Below, one piece after another: positions 12,230 to 63,926 of a stretch of DNA of 64,000 bases. Each line of letters starts with the position of its first letter. The stretch's first letter is position 1. The DNA comes from Morinoia aosen (Eukaryota > Arthropoda > Malacostraca > Amphipoda > Talitridae): positions 62,494,201-62,558,200 of the forward strand of contig CM059562.1 of NCBI GenBank assembly GCA_030386875.1, written 5' to 3'. The position numbers and the translations under genes are program-made. A model generated the notes under the pieces. It had not been told where the DNA came from, ran no database searches, and worked only from the letters and a program-made list of their open reading frames with translations.

Positions 12230-12517
12230 AGCCGGAAAGGGTTTTAACTTGTAACAACTTGTTGTTGACTCCGTGAGTCCGTGCTGTGAGGACGTGCTCT
12301 GTCCTCGGTCGGAAACAAAGTGTCACTATTGGTTAGAAAAAATGTACTCCTAACCAAAATGGGTATCCACTCACGCCATGAGGATTCAAATGTGATTTAA
12401 ACATATCATTCATCAAAATTATTAAACTAAAAGTGTAATATTCACTCTAAAAAGAGTGTGGAAGGGAAAGTGTTCAACCTTCATCTAGCAATGAACCGAG
12501 TGTTCTCAATCTTCAAC

Positions 12518-13340
12518 ATGGCGCCCAAGAAGCGAGGCAGCAACAGCAGCAGCAGCAGCAGGAGCAGTAACAACAACAGCAGTGAGCTTCAGTCGAAGTT
12601 TGGGCCATATCCTGATGTGTCTAGCTTAACGAAAGAAGGCCAGGAAGTGATTTTCTGTCCTAATAAAATACTTCGACTCAGCGATGACAAAATTTATTAT
12701 TAAAATTGAAAATATGGAAAGCGAATTGAGTAAGATTAAAACAATATTTGAATCAATAGCGGAATAAGAAGCAGAACACAAAGAAATTCTCGAAGAACAG
12801 AATGAAAAAATAATTAGATTAGCCTCCCGTCTCGACCGCTTGGAAAAAAATGATCAGCGCCGAGATTTAGAAGACAAAAAATGCACTCTCGTCATTTCTG
12901 GGAAGGGACTACCGCAATCACACACAAACGAAAGCTGCAAATAAATAGTCTGCCAGCTCCTGAAGGACCAATATCAACATCAACATCAGGCTCTACAACA
13001 CTGACATCACGTCAGCTACCAGAATGGGGAAAAAAACAGTAACTGGGAACGTAGATCTAAGAAACATTGCATTTGAACTAAAACATTATAACAAGAAGCC
13101 TGAAATCCTCACCGCCTGCCAAGAAAAGAAATTGAAGTTCTTCATTTAATGAATGCCTGATACCTTCACGAGCTAAAACCATGTACATTCCGAGAGTAGC
13201 CAAAAGGAAATTCCCGGAGAAAATAAGAATTCCGAGAACACAAGACGGAAACATCTTCGTATCTCACCCCGGAAACCCAGATTCAAGACACCACCAGATC
13301 GACACGCCAGAAGACCTCGAGCAATACCTGATGCTATAAC
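12518..13340 (+). pseudogene. LINE ORF1 remnant, coiled coil plus RNA-binding-like part
   Basis: The likely start is the ATG at 12518 (MAPKKRG, then a Ser/Asn-rich low-complexity run encoded by AGC and AAC repeats). After a frameshift near 12700 the reading continues with MESELSKIKTIFESIAE, a stop, and EAEHKEILEEQNEKIIRLAS followed by RLDRLEKNDQRRD, a clear heptad-type coiled coil. CTLVISGKG then looks like the first strand of an RRM-like domain. The C-terminus reads YIPRVAKRKFPEKIRIPRTQ and ends with DTPEDLEQYLML. This is the usual layout of a LINE nucleic-acid-chaperone ORF1. It is broken by stops and frame changes. Confidence 0.7.
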
Positions 13341-13939
13341 TGAACATGTCAGCGAAACAGGTCTTGGGTGACTGGTCTCGGGCGATCACCTCAATTAGAT
13401 ATCATGTCAGTTTCACCTTAATTAGATATCAGTTTAACCTCAATCTAGACAAATGTATAACAGATGTGGGTAAACACTTATGACAGCTGTATGTGAACTT
13501 TTGTAACAACTCCATCAGCAATTTTTACCTAGCAATGTTACAGTGGAATTTAGATTTCCACCTTGTTTGCTCTCCTACCTTATTGGTATGAAAACTTTTA
13601 TTTTTTTCATTTTTTACCACTAAAGTCATTATAAAGTGTAAACCATATTAGCTGATTATGTCATTGTCGTCAAAATGTTTAAAAACTTATTACTAGTTGT
13701 ATGAAAAATTTGTGTCAACGCCCTCAGCAAGTAGTACGTACCAACGTTGTGATATTGAACTCACATATTATTCGCTCATGGACTGTGTTTGTGTACTCAC
13801 GAAATTTTGCTAGATTTTTACTCTTTTCTCTCTTACTTCCTAAGCTAGTTTTTAGGCAGGAATAACATCCTTTTAATTTTGACTCCGTATTGCTTCTTTA
13901 AAGTTATGTATTACTTACTTCTTACTGTTTATTAATTTT
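13341..13939 (+). other. spacer between LINE ORF1 and ORF2
   Basis: No coding signal. It contains an imperfect direct repeat TTAGATATCA near 13396 and 13421. It is either a genuine inter-ORF region of this LINE family or includes an unrecognised insertion. Confidence 0.4.
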
Positions 13940-16900
13940 AAATGACTGATCACGCTGATTTATTCGATGAAATCGACCAAGATCTCAATCATTTCAACAG
14001 AATATATCCAAACCTAAACGACTCGCAAGACTATAGGCATACTAATATAACAAAATTCAACGAAACTATACGAATAACTCGCCATGATTTCTCACTCCTA
14101 TGTTGAAACTGTAGGTCACTCTATCCAAAATTGGAAGAGATACAATGTACTATTACTGATCTTAACCCTTTAACGCCCTAGTGGACTGTACGGTCCTCTT
14201 TCAAAAATAACAATGATATATTGTATTCCTTATTCAATTTGTTCACTAATGTGTCCTTTGAACTTCACTGCCGAGTGGCAGTTCCTTCCCCATCTTGAAA
14301 ACAGTGACTACCTAATGCCAGTGTCGGTTTAGTGAAGTGGTTGTCATAACGGTAATATGAGTATAAAAAGTGGGCGTTAAAGGGTTAAGTATAACATAGA
14401 TGTGATTTGCTTCTCCGAAAGTTGGCTAGATGACTCAACCAAAGACTTGATTCGATTTGAAAACTATCATAGTTACCATTCGCTATGAAAAACCAGCGAG
14501 GCGGAGGCATCAGTACATATATTTCTAACCACATAGACTCGAGAATCATAGCAAGTGCAATAATAAATCGGGATCATATAAAATCCCTCTTTGTAGAACT
14601 GTCTAGAGATGGTAAACGAATTGTGCTTGGAACAGTGTATAGACCTCCTACACCCTGACCTATATCCATCCTGAATGAGCTAAATCGTATGATCAACATG
14701 AAAGCTATGAACCAATCTCTAATTTCCTAATAGCCTTTCAGTCTCAATCTTTCATTCCGATCATCACAAAGCCTACACGAATAACCTCAAAAACTGCTAC
14801 GCTGCATGGCAATATCTTTACGACAGACCCAACTGATTTTCTAGCTGGAATCATTACTTCTAACGTATCAGATCATTTTCCAGTTTTTCTCATTAAGAAA
14901 AATGTCTATATTGCTTGCACCAAACCACGGGCTGAAACTTACTCCTATCGTAAAGTAAACGAATCAAATTATGAAGAAGTACACACCGTTCTAGAAGAAT
15001 CAATGCCAACATTGCACATCTTTGAACACAATAATGCAACGAGCATTGATGACGCTGTAGTAAAGTTGACTGGAACTATAATGGCCGCATACAATCAGTG
15101 TTGCTCAATAGTAACTCGTACAGTTACCCTGAAAAATAAACAAAAGCCCTGGATCACTGAAGACATACTGATAAAAATAAAGAAGCATCAAGCATACCTA
15201 GCCCTTCTTTGCACAGGGCGAATATCTAGAGAAACATGTAACCGATGCAGAAACTATGTGACAAACCAAATAAGGACATCAAAAAAGAACTACTTTGCGC
15301 TCAAGTTTACTCAATTTAAAGCTGACGTTAAAAAGACTTGGCGCCTCCTTAACTCTTGCCGTAAGCCGAATAACGCCGATAAAAAGAAAATTGAATATGT
15401 TGTACAAGGTAAGGTATAATAACATGAGAAGAAAGAAATTGCTAATCTCTTTAACAATTTCTTCGTAAACGTAGGGAAAACTATAGCTGATGGTATTCCA
15501 AGTGAACCTACTGATCACCTGGAATACATGGATCATATTCGAGAACACAACTCCTTTTTCGTTACGCCTACCAACTCTTCCGATGTAGTTGCGTGTATAA
15601 ACAACCTGAAAAATAAATCGAGTGGGTTACAAACGTTTCCGACAAAAGTACTTAAAATTATTACTGATATTGAGGCCCCGCTGATATCCAATATTATTAA
15701 CCAGTCTCTCTTCCTAGGCACTTTCCCGAACTCCTTCAAAGTTGCTAGAGTAACCCCTATCTTTTAAAATGGTGAAAAAACCTGTGTAAACAATTATCGA
15801 CCTATCTCCGTGCCACCAATTATTAGCAAGGTATTCGAGAAAATTGTGTATAAAAAGTTTGCTTTTATTTTGAACAAAAATCATTTCTTTGTGATAAACA
15901 ATGCGGCTTTTGCTCTAAAAAATCAACAACACAGGCTATATTAAATCATTTACAATTCCTTTATTCTAATATAGATGAAGGAAAGCCTGTCTTCTCTGTT
16001 TTTCTTGACTTTCGAAAAGCATTCGATTGTGTTGACCATAACATATAACTCTTGAAACTACACTGTTATGCAAGTCGAGGGGTTGCCTATGATTGGTTCA
16101 GATCATACCTAACAAATCGGAAGCAATACGTTGTCATTGACGATACAAAATCAGACCCACAAACAATTAGCCATGGAGTTCCACAAGGATCTGTTCTTGC
16201 GCCTCTCCTATTTCTGATTTTTATCAATGATATCATCAAATCTACATCATTTTTCAAATTCATACTTTTGCCGATGACAGCACGCTTTCTTCGGTCCTTC
16301 CGAACCAAAATCCCGCTATGATTGCAGAGAGTATAATTTATGAATTTCATAAGGTTTCATTGCGGCTCAAAGCTAATAAAATAAGCCTTAATATCGATAA
16401 ATCAAAATATATTACATTCTCATACAAGAAAAATGTATCTCTCCCACGCATTAAAATTGGCGGAGGTGAAATCGAAGAAACCAACTCAGGTAAGTTTTTG
16501 GGCATCATAATAGATAAACATCTGACATTCAAAGAGCACAACGCTCATATTAGCTCTAAATTATCTAAATCCATCGGAATCCTACATAAAGTTAAAAATT
16601 TCCTGCCTGAAACAGCTTTAAAAATGCCCTACCGAACGCTCATTTCTCCATACTTGCAATGCGGAATAGAAGCGTGGCACGAAACTGATAAAAATAAAAC
16701 CAATAAAATTTTTACGCTGCAAAGAAGAGCCATCAGAGCAGTAAAGAACCTAGAATATAATGCTCACACAAATGATTCGTTCAAAAATTTACAAATACTT
16801 ATACTTTCGAATCTCTACAAAATCTCCATTTGTAGCTTCATTTATAAAACATTAACAAATGATGGCGACAATAGCCTAAAACAATTATTAACTGCGCAAA

Positions 16901-17094
16901 CCGGTCATCACGACCATTTAACCCGAAATAGAAGTAAATTCATGCTTCCTTATTATTCAAAGGCCCGGTCGCAACGCAGTATCCTCTTCGATGGGACTAA
17001 AACTTGGAACTCAATACCTGCGGAGATCCGTGAAAGTAATTTTTACAAAGTATTCAAAAGAAACCTTGGGTCTCACTTCTTATCAGAATACTAG
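13940..17094 (+). pseudogene. LINE ORF2 remnant, APE endonuclease and reverse transcriptase
   Basis: The reading starts MTDHADLFDEIDQ at 13940. Endonuclease motifs are NCRSLYPKLEEI (Asn), FSESWL (Glu, about 14420), GTVYRPP (about 14630) and SDHFPVF (about 14870). The G-D-F-N block normally between the last two is missing, so the endonuclease has lost catalytic residues. RT blocks follow: NNYRPISVPPIISKVFEK (about 15790), FDCVDH (about 16023), HGVPQGSVLAPLLFLIFIND (16174-16233) and ADDST (about 16272), the last shifted by one base. The C-terminal region (16318-17094) is open and ends FLSEY. Stops lie at about 14111, 15418 and 15767, among others. A MITE at 14166-14384 interrupts the endonuclease domain. 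Confidence 0.85.
14166..14384 (+). mobile_element. piggyBac-type MITE nested in LINE ORF2
   Basis: This 219-bp non-coding element has perfect 13-bp terminal inverted repeats, CCCTTTAACGCCC (14166-14178) and GGGCGTTAAAGGG (14372-14384), flanked on both sides by TTAA (14162-14165 and 14385-14388). CCC-starting termini and TTAA duplication are the hallmark of piggyBac-superfamily elements. On paper, removing the element with one TTAA joins the LINE reading as TITDL then KYNIDVICFSESWL, so the insertion point is exact. It encodes no transposase. Confidence 0.93.
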
Positions 17095-21532: not shown

Positions 21533-21825
21533 GGCATCTACGGATGCTTTATTTCCAATCAAGCCTGATACATATCACCTTGTACATTGGATTTTCAAAT
21601 GCCTTATGACTAACGCCAGGACGCAATGACGCTTTCCCCCGGTCGAGACCGGTACCCATTTCAGACACCTGGGTAGAGTGGGGTATTGTGCTTGGAATTT
21701 TTCTCCTATACCCAACAGAGAAAATCGCCACTGCCAGCGCCGAGATTCGATCCCGGGTCTCCCGAACGGCGGCAGAACCCTCTAGCTGCATGGCTATGGC
21801 GGCACAGCTGCATGGCTATGGCAAG
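21533..21825 (-). mobile_element. tRNA-derived SINE, full head
   Basis: Read on the minus strand, the 5' head resembles a tRNA: an A-box-like TAGCCATGCAGCTAGAGGG near 21785-21803 and a B-box-like GGATCGAATCT at 21743-21753 (consensus GGTTCGANTCC). These would form an internal RNA polymerase III promoter. The body includes CAATACCCCACTCTACCCAG and ATGTATCAGGCTTGATTGG. The 3' end is AAATAAAGCATCCGTAGATG. A 22-bp piece of the head is tandemly duplicated (21783-21823). The same body occurs at 56545-56818 in the opposite orientation, confirming a dispersed family. Confidence 0.8.
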
Positions 21826-25001: not shown

Positions 25002-27482
25002 ATGGCTATTTGGCCTCGGCTCACTACTTCTTTCGCCCACGAACAGCTTCAGTTCAATCCCTGTTTCATACACAGTGCATATACTGTCTTTGGACGTTTT
25101 CATGAAGAGGTCGTACTTGCAATCAATAGGAACAAAACCGCCCTCCTGTGGAGCAACAAAATTTTGACGATTACTTTGGTTCTACAATTTTCTCATACAT
25201 ATATATATGCACATATTCAACATTTAATTCAACTGCTCCAATTCTCTTTTACGTTATATGAACCTATCGTTTCCAGCGGTATCTATCGTAACAAAAGAAC
25301 GAGTCTTACCCGCCATGTGTCACCTTCCGAAGCAACGTCAGTGAAGACTATGCAACCAATATCGCCGGATGAGGGAAAACATGTCTGCCAAACCTCCAGC
25401 AATCATTTGAAGGTTCGAAGCAGTGAAGTCTCAGCCGCAGCACCACAACCACCTGCTCCTCATCTGAACAAGCAAAACAGCGTGCCAGCTCCCCAGCTCT
25501 GCGTCAACAACAACGCTCCGAACTGTCCGCCAGCGGCGGGGACACAAACACCATCCTCATCAGTGGTACAAGAAAAAATAGTTTTTACTAATAAGGACAT
25601 TTCAAGCGTGGTAGACTTTTCTCATTCTCCAGATAAAATGTTCGATAATTTTCGCGCACAAACCGATACTGGCAGTAAATTACCCCAGAGCGCAAGCTGT
25701 GAAAACAAAATAAAATTTCCAGTACAGAGCAATAAAAATAACACTGTTGCTTCTTTTAATGGCTACTTGCACCCGCTTCAAATAACAAGCTCTCAAAAAA
25801 TTCATGAAATTATTCCCAATTTGTCTCTAACAAGAGCGTTTTTCAATAAATCCCTAAGACAACGTGAGCCTCCTAGCCCGTCGTCGATTTTCTCTACAGT
25901 ATCAAACATTCAGAACCTAACCGAACAGCTTTTTGCTTTAAATTCACATATAAGTTCTCAAGACCTTGCACCTGTGGTACCTGCTAGTATCTCTTGTGAA
26001 ATCGACTCCAATTGTCGAGAACCTTACGACACTTTGCTGCTAGGTGATAATATCCTAAGCACGATCAGAAGAAAGGACATCGATCGCTCGTGCTGGATCA
26101 AAACTGTTCCATCAGGGCGCTTCGATGACCTTCTCCATACTGTAAATTGCATGCCTAGATTTAAAAATTATATACTAAGTTTTGATGGTCTCTGCCACTC
26201 GCCCTCAGACCTTGCTCGAATCAAACAACAAATTGTAAGAAAGTACGCACTTTCTCGCATTTATATTGCCAATGCTTGCAGTGCAAACGAATTCAACAAA
26301 GCGAGGCATTTTTGCAAAAACCTGGGCCTAAACTTGATTCAATTTCAAACTTACCCAGAAAATGAAAATGGTGACGCACTCAATAACTTTCAATGGCCTC
26401 GGACCCAGGAAGAGAACTTCTGTTTTCTTCAACAACTTGCAATGAAATCAACATTGCGAATCACCGTGCCATATTGTCCTCGTTTCAACAAATGTCAAGC
26501 AATAAATGGAATTGTAGATCATTCCAATGAATCGAAAAATTCACGGAATGAGACAAATAGTCTCACATTAGACTTTCAAAAAGAATATAAGCCTATGCAT
26601 ATCACTGCACATGGTACACCAAATCTTTCAAAATTGATTGCGACATCAAGCAGAGGTCTGAGTAACTCACTCACCCACAGCATGAGGAACGTAAATAAGC
26701 CTGAGCCTTTCCCTGATTCGATCTCAGACAAATATAATGTCAGTACGAAAAATAAATTTGCGTTACTTGCAACAGACACAAATAGTGATTGCGACATGCC
26801 CTCCTTTTCAACCAATTCTCAACCTTCCATTGAGTACGCAGGAACCAAGGAAAGTCAAGCAAATACCGATATTCAAAACTATTCCAAAGAAAATCAAATT
26901 ATTCAAAAAAAATCTGATGCCTCTGCCGGGCCTCCGTCGAACGACCAAACTAATACTGCTACCGAAAAATCAACAGTGAATCAAATCTGCACACGCGTTG
27001 CACACACACTGGACGACTTGAAACGATCGCTCAAATTGGAGCCTGCTTACACGGTAGGTGACGGACACTGTCTCCTCCACGCCGTAACGACGCAGCTTGC
27101 TTCACAACAAAAATCGAAATGGAATTATATATCTCTGAAAAAAGCCATCAAAACTGAGAGCTCCAGAAACAAGGACCAGTATGCAAAATTCGTTGACAAG
27201 AACAGTGGCAGTTTCGAACAACTCATCGATAAATACATCGATAGAAAAGTCTTCGATCACGCAGTTGGAGACCTCATACCCCAAATACTTTCTAATGTAA
27301 CGAGAACACCAATTCACGTATTTGATGAAAGAGACAATGGGATTTGGAAGACGACAATCTCCCCTACATCAAATGCTCTGATAAACTGTCCTCCGGTAAA
27401 CATACACCGGAAACAGGACCACTATAGCGCCCTCTTGAAAATGCGTGATGAAAATCGTGTTGCTCCCTCCCCCATTTTGTGA
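25002..27482 (+). CDS. LINE ORF1 region: SGNH-like plus OTU protease
   Basis: 826 codons are open from ATG 25002; a later start at ATG 25350 (residue 117) may be the true one because residues 1-115 look like translated UTR. Residues about 120-340 are low-complexity, rich in Ser, Pro and Asn. Residues about 342-490 resemble the esterase (SGNH) domain of CR1-type ORF1 proteins, but the nucleophile block reads GDN (348-350) instead of GDS and no G-T-N-D block is seen. It is probably a non-catalytic nucleic-acid or particle-forming module. Residues about 675-815 are an OTU-family fold: GDGHCLLHAV with Asp687 and Cys690, and DHYSALL with His807, the expected catalytic set. A deubiquitinase or polyprotein-cleaving role is inference. 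The TGA at 27480 ends it, in frame with the endonuclease. Confidence 0.82.
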   Translation: MAIWPRLTTSFAHEQLQFNPCFIHSAYTVFGRFHEEVVLAINRNKTALLWSNKILTITLVLQFSHTYIYAHIQHLIQLLQFSFTLYEPIVSSGIYRNKRTSLTRHVSPSEATSVKTMQPISPDEGKHVCQTSSNHLKVRSSEVSAAAPQPPAPHLNKQNSVPAPQLCVNNNAPNCPPAAGTQTPSSSVVQEKIVFTNKDISSVVDFSHSPDKMFDNFRAQTDTGSKLPQSASCENKIKFPVQSNKNNTVASFNGYLHPLQITSSQKIHEIIPNLSLTRAFFNKSLRQREPPSPSSIFSTVSNIQNLTEQLFALNSHISSQDLAPVVPASISCEIDSNCREPYDTLLLGDNILSTIRRKDIDRSCWIKTVPSGRFDDLLHTVNCMPRFKNYILSFDGLCHSPSDLARIKQQIVRKYALSRIYIANACSANEFNKARHFCKNLGLNLIQFQTYPENENGDALNNFQWPRTQEENFCFLQQLAMKSTLRITVPYCPRFNKCQAINGIVDHSNESKNSRNETNSLTLDFQKEYKPMHITAHGTPNLSKLIATSSRGLSNSLTHSMRNVNKPEPFPDSISDKYNVSTKNKFALLATDTNSDCDMPSFSTNSQPSIEYAGTKESQANTDIQNYSKENQIIQKKSDASAGPPSNDQTNTATEKSTVNQICTRVAHTLDDLKRSLKLEPAYTVGDGHCLLHAVTTQLASQQKSKWNYISLKKAIKTESSRNKDQYAKFVDKNSGSFEQLIDKYIDRKVFDHAVGDLIPQILSNVTRTPIHVFDERDNGIWKTTISPTSNALINCPPVNIHRKQDHYSALLKMRDENRVAPSPIL

Positions 27483-27590
27483 CTAAATAACAGTGATCAA
27501 ATTGAACATGAAGCTGAAATCACAAACAATGAACGCGACAATAAAGACCTAGAGACGAATACTAAATGCCCTGCTAGACCTAAAAAATGA

Positions 27591-30446
27591 AATAACTCCA
27601 CTAAAGATCTGCCTATTGAGGTAAATAATATCAAAATATTGCACATAAATGCTCGCAGCCTCAATGGTAAAATGGATGACGTACGAGTAATGTTGATCAC
27701 TAACGATATCGACATTTTATGCGTATCTGAAACATGGTTCGATTCACGAGTCGAAAGCTCATATCTCAGCATTACCGGGTACAAATTGTACCGTTATGAC
27801 GGAGTCAAGAGTAAGAGAGGTAGCGGTTCATGCATTTTCATCAAAGATGTCTACTCTACATCCTTAGTTCCGATAAAAGAAAAATGCGAAGACATAGAAA
27901 TGGTTTGGCTCAATGTTCAAGTAAACAAACACAAGTCTTTCATTATCGGCAGTCTTTGCAGACATCCGTCAGCATCTCTTCGTCCAACATTAGATTTCAT
28001 TGAAAATACGCTTAGATCAATCTCTGCAGCCAAAAAGTCTTTCTATGTTTTCGGAGATTTTAACGTGGATCTGACAAATAAAAACAATCAGCTAAGCAAG
28101 ATGCTGCACAGACTTAATCTTTCTCAAATGGTCCAAGAACCAACGCGAATTACCAACACTTCTAAAACTCTTCTTGACCTAGCAATTACCAACAATCCCC
28201 AAGCAGTACTCAGCACAGAAATCTTACCGTCCTTTTCTGATCACCATTCGGTAGAATGCCAAATCAATATTGCAAAAGAGAAACAGAAATCTAGTTACAT
28301 TACATATCGCATGAAAAACCACTACTCCCCTGAAATATTTCAAGAAAAGCTATTAGACAGATGGAGTGAATTTCAAGGCATGGAAAACACCGATGATGTC
28401 AATCTACAAGTTTTGCTTTTCAACGAAAATTTCGTATCAGCTCTTAACGAATGCGCACCTTTCACTACGAAGAAAGTTAAGCCAAGAATTTCTAAATGGA
28501 TAACAGATGAGATAAAACAGTTGAGCAGAGCTAAAAGAAATTTGCAGCGTGAGTACAAACTGAATAAATCAGACAGTACGCGTCGAAAATTATATAAAGA
28601 TCATGAGAAGATCCTACGAAGAAAAGTTAAGGAAGCAAAACGGGACTACTTCCACAAAGAACTCTTGGCGGCAAAACAAAACCCTAAAAGAACTTGGGAA
28701 ATCATTAGAGAAGCTGCTCAGTATAAAAATTCAGACTGCAAAAGCACTTTTGACAACCCCTCAGAAATAGCGAATGACTTTAACACTTTCTTTTCAAAAG
28801 TTGGCGAAGATGTTTTCAATGAAGTATCCAGGACAGTTTCAGACACATCTACAGAGGCAAATCTGAGCGATGTTTCATCCCCAAATAGTAGCAACAAGTG
28901 GAGACCAAAGCCAGTTAGCGTCATAGAGATACGAAAAATCTTATACTCACTAAAGAATACTAAAGCGACTGGACATGATGGCATAAGCCTCCAACATATT
29001 AAAGACAGCTTCCCTGTCGCAGCACCCTTTATTCGCTTGATAATAAAAACATCTATAGTCACAAACAAGTTTCCCGATCAATGGAAACTATCCATAATTA
29101 AGCCATTACATAAATCTGGTGATATCGACATAGCGTCAAACTACAGACCAATCAGTCTCCTGCCTGTTATGTCCAAAATATTAGAAAAAGTAATAACAAA
29201 CCAGCTCTCGTCTCACATAGACGAGTCACATCTACTGCATCGCAATCAATATGCTTACAGGAGGAATACCAGTACTCACGACGCCCTGTTAAACATAACA
29301 GAAAAAATTTACAAAGATATTGACCAAAAAAAATTAACTATCTTACTATTGCTTGATCTCTCCAAAACTTTCGACAGTGTTGAGCATAAGAAACTTCTAC
29401 AAAAAATTTCAAACCTCAGAATAGACACTCAGTGGTTTGAAAGCTACCTACGAAACCGCTCTCATGCAGTGTGCTTGAATAACAAAATGTCATCATTCAT
29501 ACCAAATAACTTTGGCGTTCCTCAAGGTTCAATCATCGGCCCACTCCTATTTTCAATTTTCATCAACGATTTCCCCACCATGCCGGCAAACACAAAAATC
29601 TCAATGTAGGCTTATGACGTACAAATTGCCACGACAAGCTCAACAGCGGATTTAACAGAAACACAAGCCAACGCTGAAAACCTTCTGAGAAATCTGAAAT
29701 TGTGGTATGACCATAATGGCCTCAAACTTAACGCAAGTAAAACGCAATGCATTATTTTTGGATCACAGAATGCGACTGAAAATTTACCACCATTCAAGCT
29801 AACATTTGGAGACGATACAATTAAACCAGTCGATAAGGTTAAAAATCTGGGTGTTTGGTTTGACAAAAATATGACTTTCAATTCACACGTCGAAACAATG
29901 TGCAGCAAAATTAACGGAACCTTAATGTTCTTTCATCGTAAAAAGAACACACTTGACGAAAAATCTAGATTATTAGTGATTCAGTCTTTAGTTTTATCGC
30001 GTCTGGACTACTGCAGTCTTGTGTGGGGAGACTTACCTAAATGTCGTCAGGAAGAGTTGCAAAAATGTGTAAACTTCGCCGCCAAAGTGGTATGCAAAGG
30101 AAATTTTAATAAATACGATCATGTCACCCCTCTTTTAAGAAAACTCGACTGGATCCCAATACCGAACAGATTCATGATCCAGAAAGCTCGACGAGTATTC
30201 TCCTCTCTGTACCTCCCCCAAAGTAATGCAGAGGTGGTAAAATTTTTTCCATCTAATATCCCAAACGAAAGACCAAACCGGAGGAACGATGTTTTAGTCA
30301 GTTACCGTTCGTCTAACGTGGGACAAAAAGCTCTCTCAGTTTCTGGAGCTTTTTTGTGGAACAAGCTTCCCCAGCATATCAAAAACTCTAAAACTGGAAA
30401 AGAATTTAGAGTAAATGTGTCACGTCATTTTGCATCTCTGTCATAG
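27591..30446 (+). pseudogene. LINE APE endonuclease and reverse transcriptase
   Basis: The frame continues directly from the OTU region after TGA 27480 and TGA 27588. Endonuclease residues are Asn (27648, in HINARSLNGK), Glu (27729, SETWF), Asp and Asn (28056, 28062, GDFNVDL), and Asp and His (28239, 28242, SDHHS). The usual Y-R-P-P block reads CRHPS. RT blocks are NYRPISLLPVMSKILEKV (about 29140), DLSKTFDSVEH (catalytic Asp at 29355) and NFGVPQGSIIGPLLFSIFIN (about 29507). The second active-site box is destroyed: Tyr is TAG (29607) and the sequence then reads AYD where A-D-D is expected. The C-terminal domain (29610-30446) is open and ends RHFASLS. No in-frame ATG precedes the first catalytic Asn, which argues against independent initiation. 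Confidence 0.9.
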
Positions 30447-35147: not shown

Positions 35148-35878
35148 CCGGGTGTCTCACGAAAATATCCCCAACTTTTTAATTGATTTTATCTCCGCTT
35201 AAAATTAGCATATTTAAATTTTGATATTTTCACAATGTAATAAATTTTGTTTCCTTTTCGAATAATTTGAGTTTTGGAAAATCGGTTGAATAACCACTTT
35301 AAAATGATTGACGTGCTGAAAGGGATAGAAAAACTAATTGTTTAGAGGAAAAGTTTTTAAAACAATATTGATATTCTTCCTTACTTTGTATTTTCCAAAA
35401 AAAACAAAGATATAAAGGAGTGACAAATCATTACCCTAAATAACGTTTAGATAAATAAAGTAATTTAGTATCCTTCGAATACTACTTCTAGCCACCATTG
35501 AACGAAGAGTTTTGCGGATTATTTCAAAGTTTTGTTTCAGTTTTTGAAACACTTCTTCAATTCGTTGTTGAAAGAAGTGATACATACTTGGTAGTATGTA
35601 CGATAAATCATTGTGAAATTATTTATGACAGTAGGTATAGAGAAATGAAGAAGAACCCCAGTGTTGTTTTTAAAACTTTTCCTTTGAGCAATTAATTTGT
35701 CCACCTCTTTCAGTGAATCGATCACTGTAAAGTGGTTACTAAACGATTTTCAAAAACTTAAATTGTTCGAAAAGGAAATAAAATTTGCTACATTGTAAAA
35801 AAAAAAATTCAAATATGTTAATTTAAAGCGGAGTTATAATCAATTAAAAAGTCGGGGACATTTTTGTGGAAGACCCGG
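35148..35878. mobile_element. foldback DNA transposon, about 250-bp inverted arms
   Basis: The left arm (35148-35395) and right arm (35632-35878) are imperfect inverted repeats. The left begins CCGGGTGTCTCACGAAAATA and the complement of the right begins CCGGGTCTTCCACAAAAATG. Both continue with ACTTTTTAATTGATT, CTCCGCTT, TTTCCTTTTCGAA and GGAAAAGTTTT. A spacer of about 237 bp carries no recognisable domain. A TA lies close to each end, compatible with but not proving a Tc1/mariner-type target. Short open frames inside are incidental. Confidence 0.8.
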
Positions 35879-43559: not shown

Positions 43560-44590
43560 TTGGCTATAAGCTAGGAAATTTAGGGTTCGTAGAAGAGCCG
43601 GCGGATTTAGCTAGCAGAGACGCAACACGTCGGGCGCGGCGCTTCCGGCGGCAGCCCACAATAGCAGCCATCTGAAGATTACGAGAGCGTAAGAAAGAAT
43701 TCAAGTTTAAGTTTAATTAACGAGCAAGCTCAAGTTTAAGTTTAATTAACGAGCAAGCTCAAGTTTAAGTTTAATTAAGGAGCAAGCTCAAGTTTAAGTT
43801 TAATTAACGAGCAAGCTCAAGTTTAAGTTTAATTAACGTGCAAGCTCAAGTTTAGGTTTAATTAACGAGCAAGCTCACGTTTAAGTTTAATTAACGAGCA
43901 AGCTCAAGTTTAAGTTTAATTAACGAACACGTTCAAGTTTAAGTTTAATTAGCGAACACGTTCAAGTTTAAGTTTAATTAGTGAACACGTTCAAGTAGTA
44001 GAAATTCAGTTAGGCTGCGTTAATTTTTGATACTATAGGACCGAGAAACGGGATGTTTACAAGGAATAATTCCTTGGGCGGGCCTACGGACAACGGTGTC
44101 TGACAAAAGCGCCCATACCGACAGCACACTTACCGCGTCCGATACATCCTTTGGGCTCGCAAGTAGAGCAGCGGAGCGTCGACGTCCCAGGTGCCGGAGA
44201 AGAGCTTCCCGAAGACACGGCCCGAAGACATAGCGAGACGCCGATGACCGGCTCCAGCGTCCTCCAGCGAACGCTCCCCCCAGCCGGCGAGGCACTCAGG
44301 GAAATTAGCAGCACATGCCTGGTTGGCACTTCATGGTTCCACGGATGAGGCCGTACGTTATGGTGGCGATGACAGGCTGAATTGTATAACAGAGCTGAGC
44401 CGTGTGAGCACGGTTGGGTTAGCGAGGTGTCTGACGACCATTGAACAGTGCGAGCCGACTACACGTTGGCATCGACATAATAGGTTGCGACAAGTATGCT
44501 ATCGACAGAACGCAATCAGATATTTATGTCTTATTTACTTTTATGAAATTCATATTCTTAATAGGATATTTTATACACGAATAAACTAAG
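43560..44590. other. GC-rich block, possible LTR or promoter
   Basis: A block with much higher GC than its surroundings. It begins with GATTGGCTATAAG (reverse CCAAT box plus TATA-like sequence, about 43558), then a GC-rich leader (43590-43690), a 29-bp minisatellite, a GC-rich stretch (44040-44480) and AATAAA at about 44580. This order could be a long solo LTR or a host promoter and first exon. No coding motif was identified and no duplicated flank was found. Confidence 0.3.
43702..43991. repeat. 29-bp minisatellite, 10 copies
   Basis: Ten head-to-tail copies of CAAGTTTAAGTTTAATTAAC followed by GAGCAAGCT, with exact 29-bp spacing from 43702. Copies 1-7 end GCAAGCT; copies 8-10 share the variant GAACACGTT, showing local homogenisation at the 3' end. 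Confidence 0.95.
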
Positions 44591-51216: not shown

Positions 51217-52604
51217 TAGAGGTAGATCTCATGCTATAGTGTGGTAGACCTCATGCTATAGTGTGGTAGACCTCATGCTATTGTGTGGTAGACCTCATGC
51301 TATAGCGTGGTAGACCTCATGCTATAGTGTGGTAGACCTCATGCTATAGTGTGGTAGACCTCACGCTGTAGTGTGGTAGACCTCATGCTATAGTGTGGTA
51401 GACCTCATGCTATAGCGTGGTAGACCTCATGCTATAGTGTGGTAGACCTCACGCTGTAGTGTGGTAGACCTCATGCTATAGTGTGGTAGACCTCATGCTA
51501 TAGCGTGGTAGACCTCATGCTATAGCGTGGTAGACCTCATCCTATATTGTAGTACACCTCATGCTATAGCGTGGTAGACCTCATGCTATAGTGTGGTAGA
51601 CCTCATGCTATAGCGTGGTAGACCTCATGCTATAGTGTGGTAGACCTCATGCTATAGCGTGGTAGACCTCATGCTATAGTGTGGTAGACCTCACGCTGTA
51701 GTGTGGTAGACCTCATGCTATAGTGTGGTAGACCTCATGCTATAGCGTGGTAGACCTCATGCTATAGTGTGGTAGACCTCACGCTGTAGTGTGGTAAGCC
51801 TCATGCTTTAGTGTGGTAGACCTCATGCTATAGTGTGGTAGACCTCATGCTATAGTGAGGTAGACCTCATACTATAGTGAGGTAGACCTCATGCTATAGT
51901 GTGGTAGACCTCATACTATAGTGAGGTAAACCTCATGCTATAGTGTGGTAGACCTCATGCTATAGTGTGGTAGACCTCATGCTATAGTGTGGTAGACCTC
52001 ATACTATAGTGAGGTAGACCTCATACTATAGTGTGGTAGACCTCATGCTATTGTGTGGTAGACCTCATGCTATAGTGTGGTAGACCTCATGCTATAGTGT
52101 GGTAGACCTCATGCTATAGTGTGGTAGACCTCATGCTATAGTGTGGTAGACCTCACGCTGTAGTGTGGTAGACCTCATGCTATAGTGTGGTAGACCTCAT
52201 GCTATAGTGTGGTAGACCTCATGCTATAGTGTGGTAAACCTCATGCTATAGCGTGGTAGACCTCATGCTATAGTGTGGTAGACCTCACGCTGTAGTGTGG
52301 TAGACCTCATGCTATAGTGTGGTAGACCTCATGCTATAGTGTGGTAGACCTCATGCTATAGTGTGGTAGACCTCACGCTGTAGTGTGGTAGACCTCATGC
52401 TATAGTGTGGTAGACCTCATGCTATAGTGTGGTAGACCTCATGCTATAGTGTGGTAGACCTCATGCTATAGTGTGGTAGACCTCACGCTGTAGTGTGGTA
52501 GACCTCATGCTATAGTGTGGTAGACCTCATGCTATATTGTGGTAGACCTCATGCTATAGTGTGGTAGACCTCATGCTATAGTGTGGTAGACCTCATGCTA
52601 TAGT
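51217..52604. repeat. 22-bp satellite array, about 63 copies
   Basis: Consensus GTGGTAGACCTCATGCTATA plus GT, period exactly 22 bp over 1,388 bp. Copies abut directly with no spacers. A recurrent variant CACGCTGTAGT is found at 51363, 51451, 51693, 51781, 52155, 52287, 52375 and 52485, always a whole number of units apart. Other variants are TATAGC, ACTATAGTGAGG and one poorly matching copy at about 51539-51560. Only single-base substitutions separate most copies, implying recent expansion. No open reading frame of note. Confidence 0.97.
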
Positions 52605-56544: not shown

Positions 56545-56818
56545 CTGCGCGGCGATTTCTTCGTTGGGTAAAAGGGAGAACTCAAGCACAATACCCCACT
56601 CAACCCAGGTGTCGGAAATGGGTACCGGCTTTACGGGGGAAAGCGTCATGGCGTCCTTGTGTTAGTTGTAAGGCATTTGAAAAACCAATATACAAGATGA
56701 TATGTATCAGACTTGATTGGAAATAATGCATCCTTAAATAAAGCATCCTTAGATAAAGCATCCTTAGATAAAGCATCCTTAGATAAAGCATCCTTGGATA
56801 AAGCATCCTTAGATGCCA
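56545..56818 (+). mobile_element. tRNA-derived SINE, head missing, expanded tail
   Basis: Homologous to the reverse complement of 21533-21825. Shared blocks are GCGATTT, CAAGCACAATACCCCACTC, CCCAGGTGTC, GGTACCGG, GGGGGAAAGCGTCAT and ATGTATCAGACTTGATTGG. The tRNA-like head with A and B boxes is absent, so the copy is 5'-truncated. The 3' tail is a (GATAAAGCATCCTTA)n array of about six 15-bp units (56726-56815), whereas the other copy has one. Tails made of short tandem repeats are usual for CR1/L2-mobilised SINEs (inference). Confidence 0.82.
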
Positions 56819-63624: not shown

Positions 63625-63926
63625 GAAAATCGTTGTTGAATTTTACGTTTGAGTTGGGCGTGCACGGGAAGCTGCCATTTTTAGATGTTTTGATTGAGGC
63701 GTCTCATTGTACTTTTCATAGATCAGTTTACGTTAAGCAACCTAATGCAGGTAAAACTATAAATTATGACTGTGATGCTCCACAAATGTACAAAGAGGGT
63801 GTTATACACACTTTAATAAATAGGCCGTATAAGGTGTGTAGCAGCTGGTCAAGCTTTCATTCAGAAGTGCTTAGAACTGCAGACTATATAAAATTGGATG
63901 AAAAAAAGAATATAATTTATGAGTAA
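63625..63926 (+). pseudogene. Penelope-like reverse transcriptase fragment, 5'-truncated
   Basis: The open frame reads LNFTFELGVHGKLPFLDVLI, then FHRSVYVKQPNAGKTINYD and KEGVIHTLINRPYKVCSSW. These are the conserved blocks just downstream of the RT active site in Penelope-like elements (F-T-E, L-x-F-L-D, V-Y-x-K, G-V-I-x-T-L-I-x-R). Similarity starts abruptly near 63625, so the catalytic part has been lost by 5' truncation. It ends at a TAA (63924-63926), and no GIY-YIG part is visible before the window ends. Confidence 0.8.

Follow-up and report, generated by a model that had tools for sequence, protein, structure and literature searches.

A decayed LINE of Morinoia aosen with a candidate OTU-like cysteine protease domain at the end of ORF1

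Results

The window analysed here, a 64-kb stretch of Morinoia aosen DNA, carries on its forward strand a LINE with the features listed in Table 1. The element occupies a single reading frame of 5.4 kb (25002-30446, 1,815 codons) with three internal stops (27480, 27588 and 29607), whereas the other five frames hold 72-145 stops each. ORF1 and ORF2, the latter encoding the endonuclease and the reverse transcriptase (RT), share this frame, a point absent from the original prediction, which had placed the ORF1 protein ahead of the endonuclease/RT. This placement holds, since the Pfam endonuclease and RT domains come after ORF1.

Table 1. Features of the OTU-containing LINE; positions are those of the 64-kb window.
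Feature	Position	Strand	Remark
ORF1	25002..27482	+	826 aa; TGA stop at 27480
Ser/Asn/Thr/Pro/Gln-rich stretch, residues 116-341	25347..26024	+	46% S/N/T/P/Q
Region of the putative pseudo-esterase, residues 342-490	26025..26471	+	Identity not assigned
Second Ser/Asn/Thr-rich stretch, residues 491-659	26472..26978	+	46% S/N/T/P/Q
Candidate OTU-like cysteine protease domain	27006..27479	+	Pfam match 27057-27356
In-frame TGA past the OTU domain	27480..27482	+	CTA next
Second in-frame TGA, ahead of the endonuclease	27588..27590	+	Frame reading
APE-type endonuclease domain	27648..28244	+	Pfam Exo_endo_phos, 40.1 bits, E 4.6e-10
Reverse transcriptase domain	29112..29582	+	Pfam RVT_1, E 6.5e-28
In-frame TAG within the RT catalytic motif (KISM*AYD)	29607..29609	+	Sequence reading
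RT C-terminal part, 278 aa	29610..30446	+	Without Pfam family
AATAAA	30750..30755	+	3' of the last stop

At the base composition of ORF1, a stop-free run of its 826 codons has a chance probability of approximately 2.6e-21. The true start of ORF1 may be a later in-frame ATG, for example the one at 25350, given that residues 1-115 (40% V/I/L/M/F/W/Y, 4% acidic residues) are unlike the remainder of the protein in composition. Residues 116-341, in which no Pfam domain was found at E up to 1, are probably disordered, and residues 491-659 probably form a linker.

This copy of the LINE (25002-30446) is decayed. The catalytic motif expected for an RT is of the YADD type; here, the TAG at 29607 replaces its expected first residue and the first acidic residue is also altered, and the copy therefore cannot be active. 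In a PDB search, the nearest solved sequence to the RT was 8c8j_A ('RNA-directed DNA polymerase', E 1.6e-15), with R2 proteins next, and no Pfam family was found at E up to 1 in the RT tail (29613-30443, 277 aa). The coordinates 25002-30446 describe the extent of the frame only: of 31 direct-repeat families, the 20 listed contained no convincing target-site duplication that would mark the ends of the element. The window contains neither a second copy of this LINE nor any Rfam family at gathering cut-offs. CpG is undepleted in the window (observed/expected 0.93), so that the TGAs at 27480 and 27588 are not specially likely to be products of methylated CpG decay.

An OTU-type protease in a LINE had been predicted, and the profile search supports it. 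Pfam OTU (PF02338) matches residues 686-785 of ORF1 with 31.6 bits (E 2.7e-7) at a curated cut-off of 23.3, and the isolated OTU piece reaches 35.1 bits (E 2.2e-8) at the same cut-off. The candidate triad Asp687/Cys690/His807 (codons at 27060, 27069 and 27420) was located where the prediction had put it, with GDGHC at residues 686-690 and DHYSALL starting at 806. Cys and His are 117 residues apart, a spacing that falls within the range of OTU domains, and a search of all six frames of the 64 kb with a regular expression for an OTU-type Cys box gave a single match. The PF02338 match extends to position 99-100 of the 128 in the profile, which leaves His807 outside it.

Two cellular proteins are weakly similar to the OTU domain, VCPIP1 (best E 0.0023) and OTUD7B (E 0.34). 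The nearest solved sequence to the OTU piece is VCPIP1, found with three chains in two PDB searches (E 0.0023-0.0064 and 0.0035-0.0097), and the similarity already starts ahead of the Cys box, where TLDDLKR is paired with TLEDIKR. OTUD7B, which came next, aligns collinearly in the Cys box and then with DHYSALL against AHFSALV; the stretch around the His, which scores 0.0 bits alone, lends weak support to His807 that is independent of Pfam. The C-terminal 88 residues of ORF1 alone had no PDB match at E 10. Further weak matches to the OTU piece stayed below the cut-off, namely DUF3671 (E 0.0092) and Flp_C (E 0.052) in Pfam and the unnamed phrog_28689 (E 0.0066) and phrog_17807 (E 0.1), and ORF1 had no NCBIfam match at E up to 10. 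The single-sequence AlphaFold model of the OTU piece (mean pLDDT 40.1) was too poor to use, and none of its 24 Foldseek matches is described as an OTU protein; the assignment as OTU is accordingly based on the profile match and the candidate residues. Judged by these, the LINE very probably encodes an OTU domain in which no residue of the candidate triad is missing.

The original prediction had also paired the OTU domain with a dead SGNH-like module in residues 342-490, laid out like an esterase but with GDN in place of GDS. The GDN is indeed present (residues 348-350), whereas the esterase-like layout found no sequence support, and the pairing was not supported by Pfam, the PDB or a bacterial SGNH profile. 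Neither of two versions of the region had a Pfam match at E up to 10, and a sequence search of the PDB (E up to 5) yielded three weak sequences, none of them an SGNH hydrolase. Against an SGNH profile built from 31 bacterial sequences, none derived from transposons, so that a far relative could escape it, the score of residues 334-498 was 14.66, from seven aligned columns that correspond to LLLGDNI only. For 60 shuffles the mean score was 11.2 and the highest 18.8, with five or more of them exceeding 14.66, and 17 tiles of ORF1 scored 9.1-13.2; residues 334-498 thus beat every tile, but not chance. Direct reading of residues 342-490 revealed no GxND, the motif of the oxyanion Asn, and placed Asp-x-x-His (DLLH, 376-379) in the first third of the region and not C-terminally as in type IV ORF1s. 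The single-sequence model, of very low confidence (mean pLDDT 40.2), consists of alternating strands and helices and had no Foldseek match at E 0.001 or better.

An SGNH esterase identity of residues 342-490 was rejected on the lack of Pfam and PDB support and a profile score within the range of the shuffles. Nor was the protein assigned to the type IV (esterase) ORF1s, as it is without SGNH similarity, catalytic Ser, GxND and C-terminal Asp-x-x-His. A dead transposon esterase that has diverged beyond the reach of these searches would nevertheless be compatible with these results. Esterase ORF1s have been described in several animal phyla and some SGNH proteins as inactive (PMC3905857), and in the account of 448 Jockey-superfamily elements esterase ORF1s appear in only two vertebrate subgroups (PMC4120745).

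A second, more decayed LINE lies in the window at 12431-17094 (+), with endonuclease/RT pieces disrupted by frameshifts and stops and, by eye, a possible coiled-coil ORF1 upstream. Its part 14679-17094 shares approximately 24% identity with ORF2 of the OTU LINE over most of the length, rising to 52% in an RT block of 46 residues. A six-frame scan detected no Cys box in the second LINE; in Pfam, its pieces 12768-12941 and 14679-15416 had no match, and 12964-13146 had one below the threshold that is probably due to chance.

In viral contigs, single-sequence scans, which reach close relatives only, detected no relative of the OTU piece, ORF2, the middle region or the whole ORF1; an RT alignment of the two LINEs of the window found none either, and the exact Cys-box DNA pattern had 0 matches. 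The OTU piece, ORF2 and the DNA of 25002-30446 had no match in phages, and the ORF1 protein had none in plasmids, while ORF2 weakly matched an Alicyclobacillus plasmid (E 1e-5, 25% identity). A scan of genome contigs yielded two LINEs (L001 and L002) among 204 candidate stretches, both at approximately 25% identity. Their contigs are filed under Flavobacteriales and Gammaproteobacteria MAGs, but the LINEs are of eukaryote type and probably represent contamination. In the three ORFs of L001 and L002 that were tested, Pfam found no OTU domain at E up to 0.1, with L002 starting inside the endonuclease; an OTU family search of their genomes gave no match, but neither did 14 control genomes, and it is thus uninformative on absence.

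Discussion

Dualen/RandI elements carry a cysteine protease and are, like the element described here, non-LTR retrotransposons with an APE endonuclease. Dualen/RandI elements are described as having RLE in addition to APE, and RNase H (PMC4640811). By contrast, RNase H was not found by Pfam in the three ORF pieces of this decayed copy of the OTU LINE. The OTU LINE has an APE endonuclease, and its tail matched no Pfam family. The nematode NeSL elements and Utopia-1_TSP are likewise LINEs with an N-terminal ubiquitin-like-processing cysteine protease, but according to the same source this is Ulp1 instead of OTU, and they have an RLE at the C-terminus (PMC4640811). In the type IV (esterase) ORF1s of CR1/L2 elements such as ZfL2-1, an extra enzyme domain is found 5' of the APE endonuclease/RT, as it is here; these enzymes are described as SGNH esterases with conserved catalytic residues (PMC3905857, PMC4120745), in contrast to an OTU enzyme in an element whose SGNH likeness is confined to LLLGDNI. 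OTU-like cysteine proteases are reported for the mobile elements Ginger1 and Helentrons (PMC2836005, PMC4067079) and OTU domains also for Helentron-type transposons (PMC6431247). Ginger1 and Helentrons are, however, DNA transposons with an integrase-like transposase or Rep/helicase, whereas the element described here is a LINE, and only OTU, endonuclease and RT families exceeded the Pfam cut-off in its ORF pieces. Given that an APE endonuclease is followed by an RT and that RNase H was not found, the layout most resembles that of the Jockey superfamily.

Ginger and Helentron-type DNA transposons are the sole carriers of OTU domains in the literature texts covered here, and no LINE is among them. 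A survey of 448 Jockey-superfamily elements uses the words 'OTU' and 'protease' nowhere in its main text, although it was based on aligned subgroups, one subgroup of 13 being without hits, so that single oddities could escape it (PMC4120745). A gastropod non-LTR paper and an insect-LINE helicase paper also contain no mention of OTU or a protease. OTU capture is known in DNA transposons, and an OTU domain in an APE-type LINE, as read from the sequence of this copy, is apparently undescribed in the full-text articles covered. If other copies confirm the arrangement, an extra domain would stand beside the five described ORF1 types, and OTU capture would have occurred in an APE-type retrotransposon and not only in DNA transposons. 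To our knowledge, it is an open question how LINE proteins survive ubiquitin-dependent turnover, and a LINE with its own deubiquitinase-type domain would make this question directly testable.

We hypothesize that the locus is a decayed APE-type LINE, most similar to the Jockey superfamily (CR1/L2), whose ORF1 ends in an OTU domain with a deubiquitinating role (probability roughly 0.45). In live copies, the OTU domain would take ubiquitin off the ORF1 and ORF2 proteins of the element or, alternatively, off host factors within the ribonucleoprotein, and the deubiquitinated proteins would escape proteasomal turnover long enough for nuclear entry. For transposition of Ginger elements, OTU/Ulp1 domains have been proposed to act, for example, on DNA repair factors (PMC2836005), and the Helentron protease has been suggested to trigger proteolytic signalling (PMC4067079); neither proposal equals the role considered here. 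A cellular deubiquitinase may have been the source of the captured domain; by sequence, its nearest solved relatives are VCPIP1 and OTUD7B. An ORF1 that is open over 826 codons, although the downstream frame holds three stops, speaks for this explanation; against it stand the single dead copy known and the finding of no relative of ORF1 or its OTU domain in the databases scanned. The deubiquitinating role of the candidate domain is itself proposed tentatively. It is the most likely role, with polyprotein cleavage as a compatible main rival.

OTU-fold proteases process polyproteins in some RNA viruses, and in the LINE ORF1 and ORF2 might be made as one product, either from a single ORF or by readthrough at 27480, from which the OTU domain would cut off the endonuclease/RT. 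Such a polyprotein is plausible because of the frame shared over 1,815 codons, with its three stops against the 72-145 of the other frames, and because the stretch 27480-27671 is free of in-frame ATGs. The next in-frame ATG, at 27672, falls 3' of the endonuclease stretch HINARSL (27642) and would remove the start of the endonuclease, which leaves ORF2 without an ordinary start in this copy. The OTU domain is located at the junction of ORF1 and the endonuclease, and single-ORF elements are described in one L2 and one CR1 subgroup (PMC4120745). The first stop, moreover, reads UGA CUA, given as a consensus context for high readthrough in human cells (PMC4359377); among all 2,720 TGA triplets of the window, counted on either strand and in every frame, 26 are followed by CTA. 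On the other hand, a second TGA follows 36 codons past the first, so that two stops separate the OTU domain from the endonuclease, and the RNA structure of 27480-27600 is ordinary (z -0.02). A non-AUG start of ORF2 is also possible, two ORFs would share a frame by chance in one third of cases, and there is no known cleavage site. Either the TGAs reflect the decay of one long ORF, or the first is read through, or ORF2 has a non-AUG start. Taking both sides into account, we regard a polyprotein-cleaving protease as unlikely. The combination of both roles, in which the OTU domain of a LINE polyprotein (or of a fusion made by leakage at UGA-CUA) would free the endonuclease/RT and also deubiquitinate the ribonucleoprotein, appears improbable.

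It is likewise rather doubtful, and somewhat more so than polyprotein cleavage, that the OTU fold is a passenger or a structural module which binds protein or ubiquitin without catalysis, or was picked up by chance in a minor lineage. The single known copy with its broken RT would fit such an origin, and the ORF1s of CR1 and L2 LINEs are described as having been built by domain shuffling (PMC4120745); yet the full set of three candidate catalytic residues has been retained, and ORF1 is open, in contrast to the stops in the downstream frame. Very improbable is an artefact, in which a host OTU pseudogene or another mobile element such as Ginger or a Helentron, both known to carry OTU domains (PMC2836005, PMC4067079), would lie beside an unrelated 5'-truncated LINE, because ORF1, OTU domain and endonuclease follow one another in one continuous frame with no frameshift and Pfam identified no transposase, integrase, Rep or helicase in the three ORF pieces of the element, even though the OTU/LINE junction is present in no other copy in the window.

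Besides the two LINEs, the window contains several repeats. An open frame at 63627-63926 (+), which we take to resemble the end of a Penelope-like RT (LPFLDVLI...GVIHTLINR), had no match in Pfam (E up to 0.1). Tandem arrays are found at 51221-52604 (22-bp unit, approximately 63 copies, 93% match) and at 43701-43980 (29-bp unit, 9.7 copies, 95% match), and an interspersed repeat of approximately 190 bp occurs at 21536-21729 and, 86% identical and in the opposite orientation, at 56551-56739. The segment 59292-59768 (477 bp) has an 82% match to its own reverse complement, similar to a foldback element. Finally, an inverted repeat of approximately 230 bp with 81% identity (35148-35379 and 35650-35878, 270 bp apart) is possibly a small DNA transposon.
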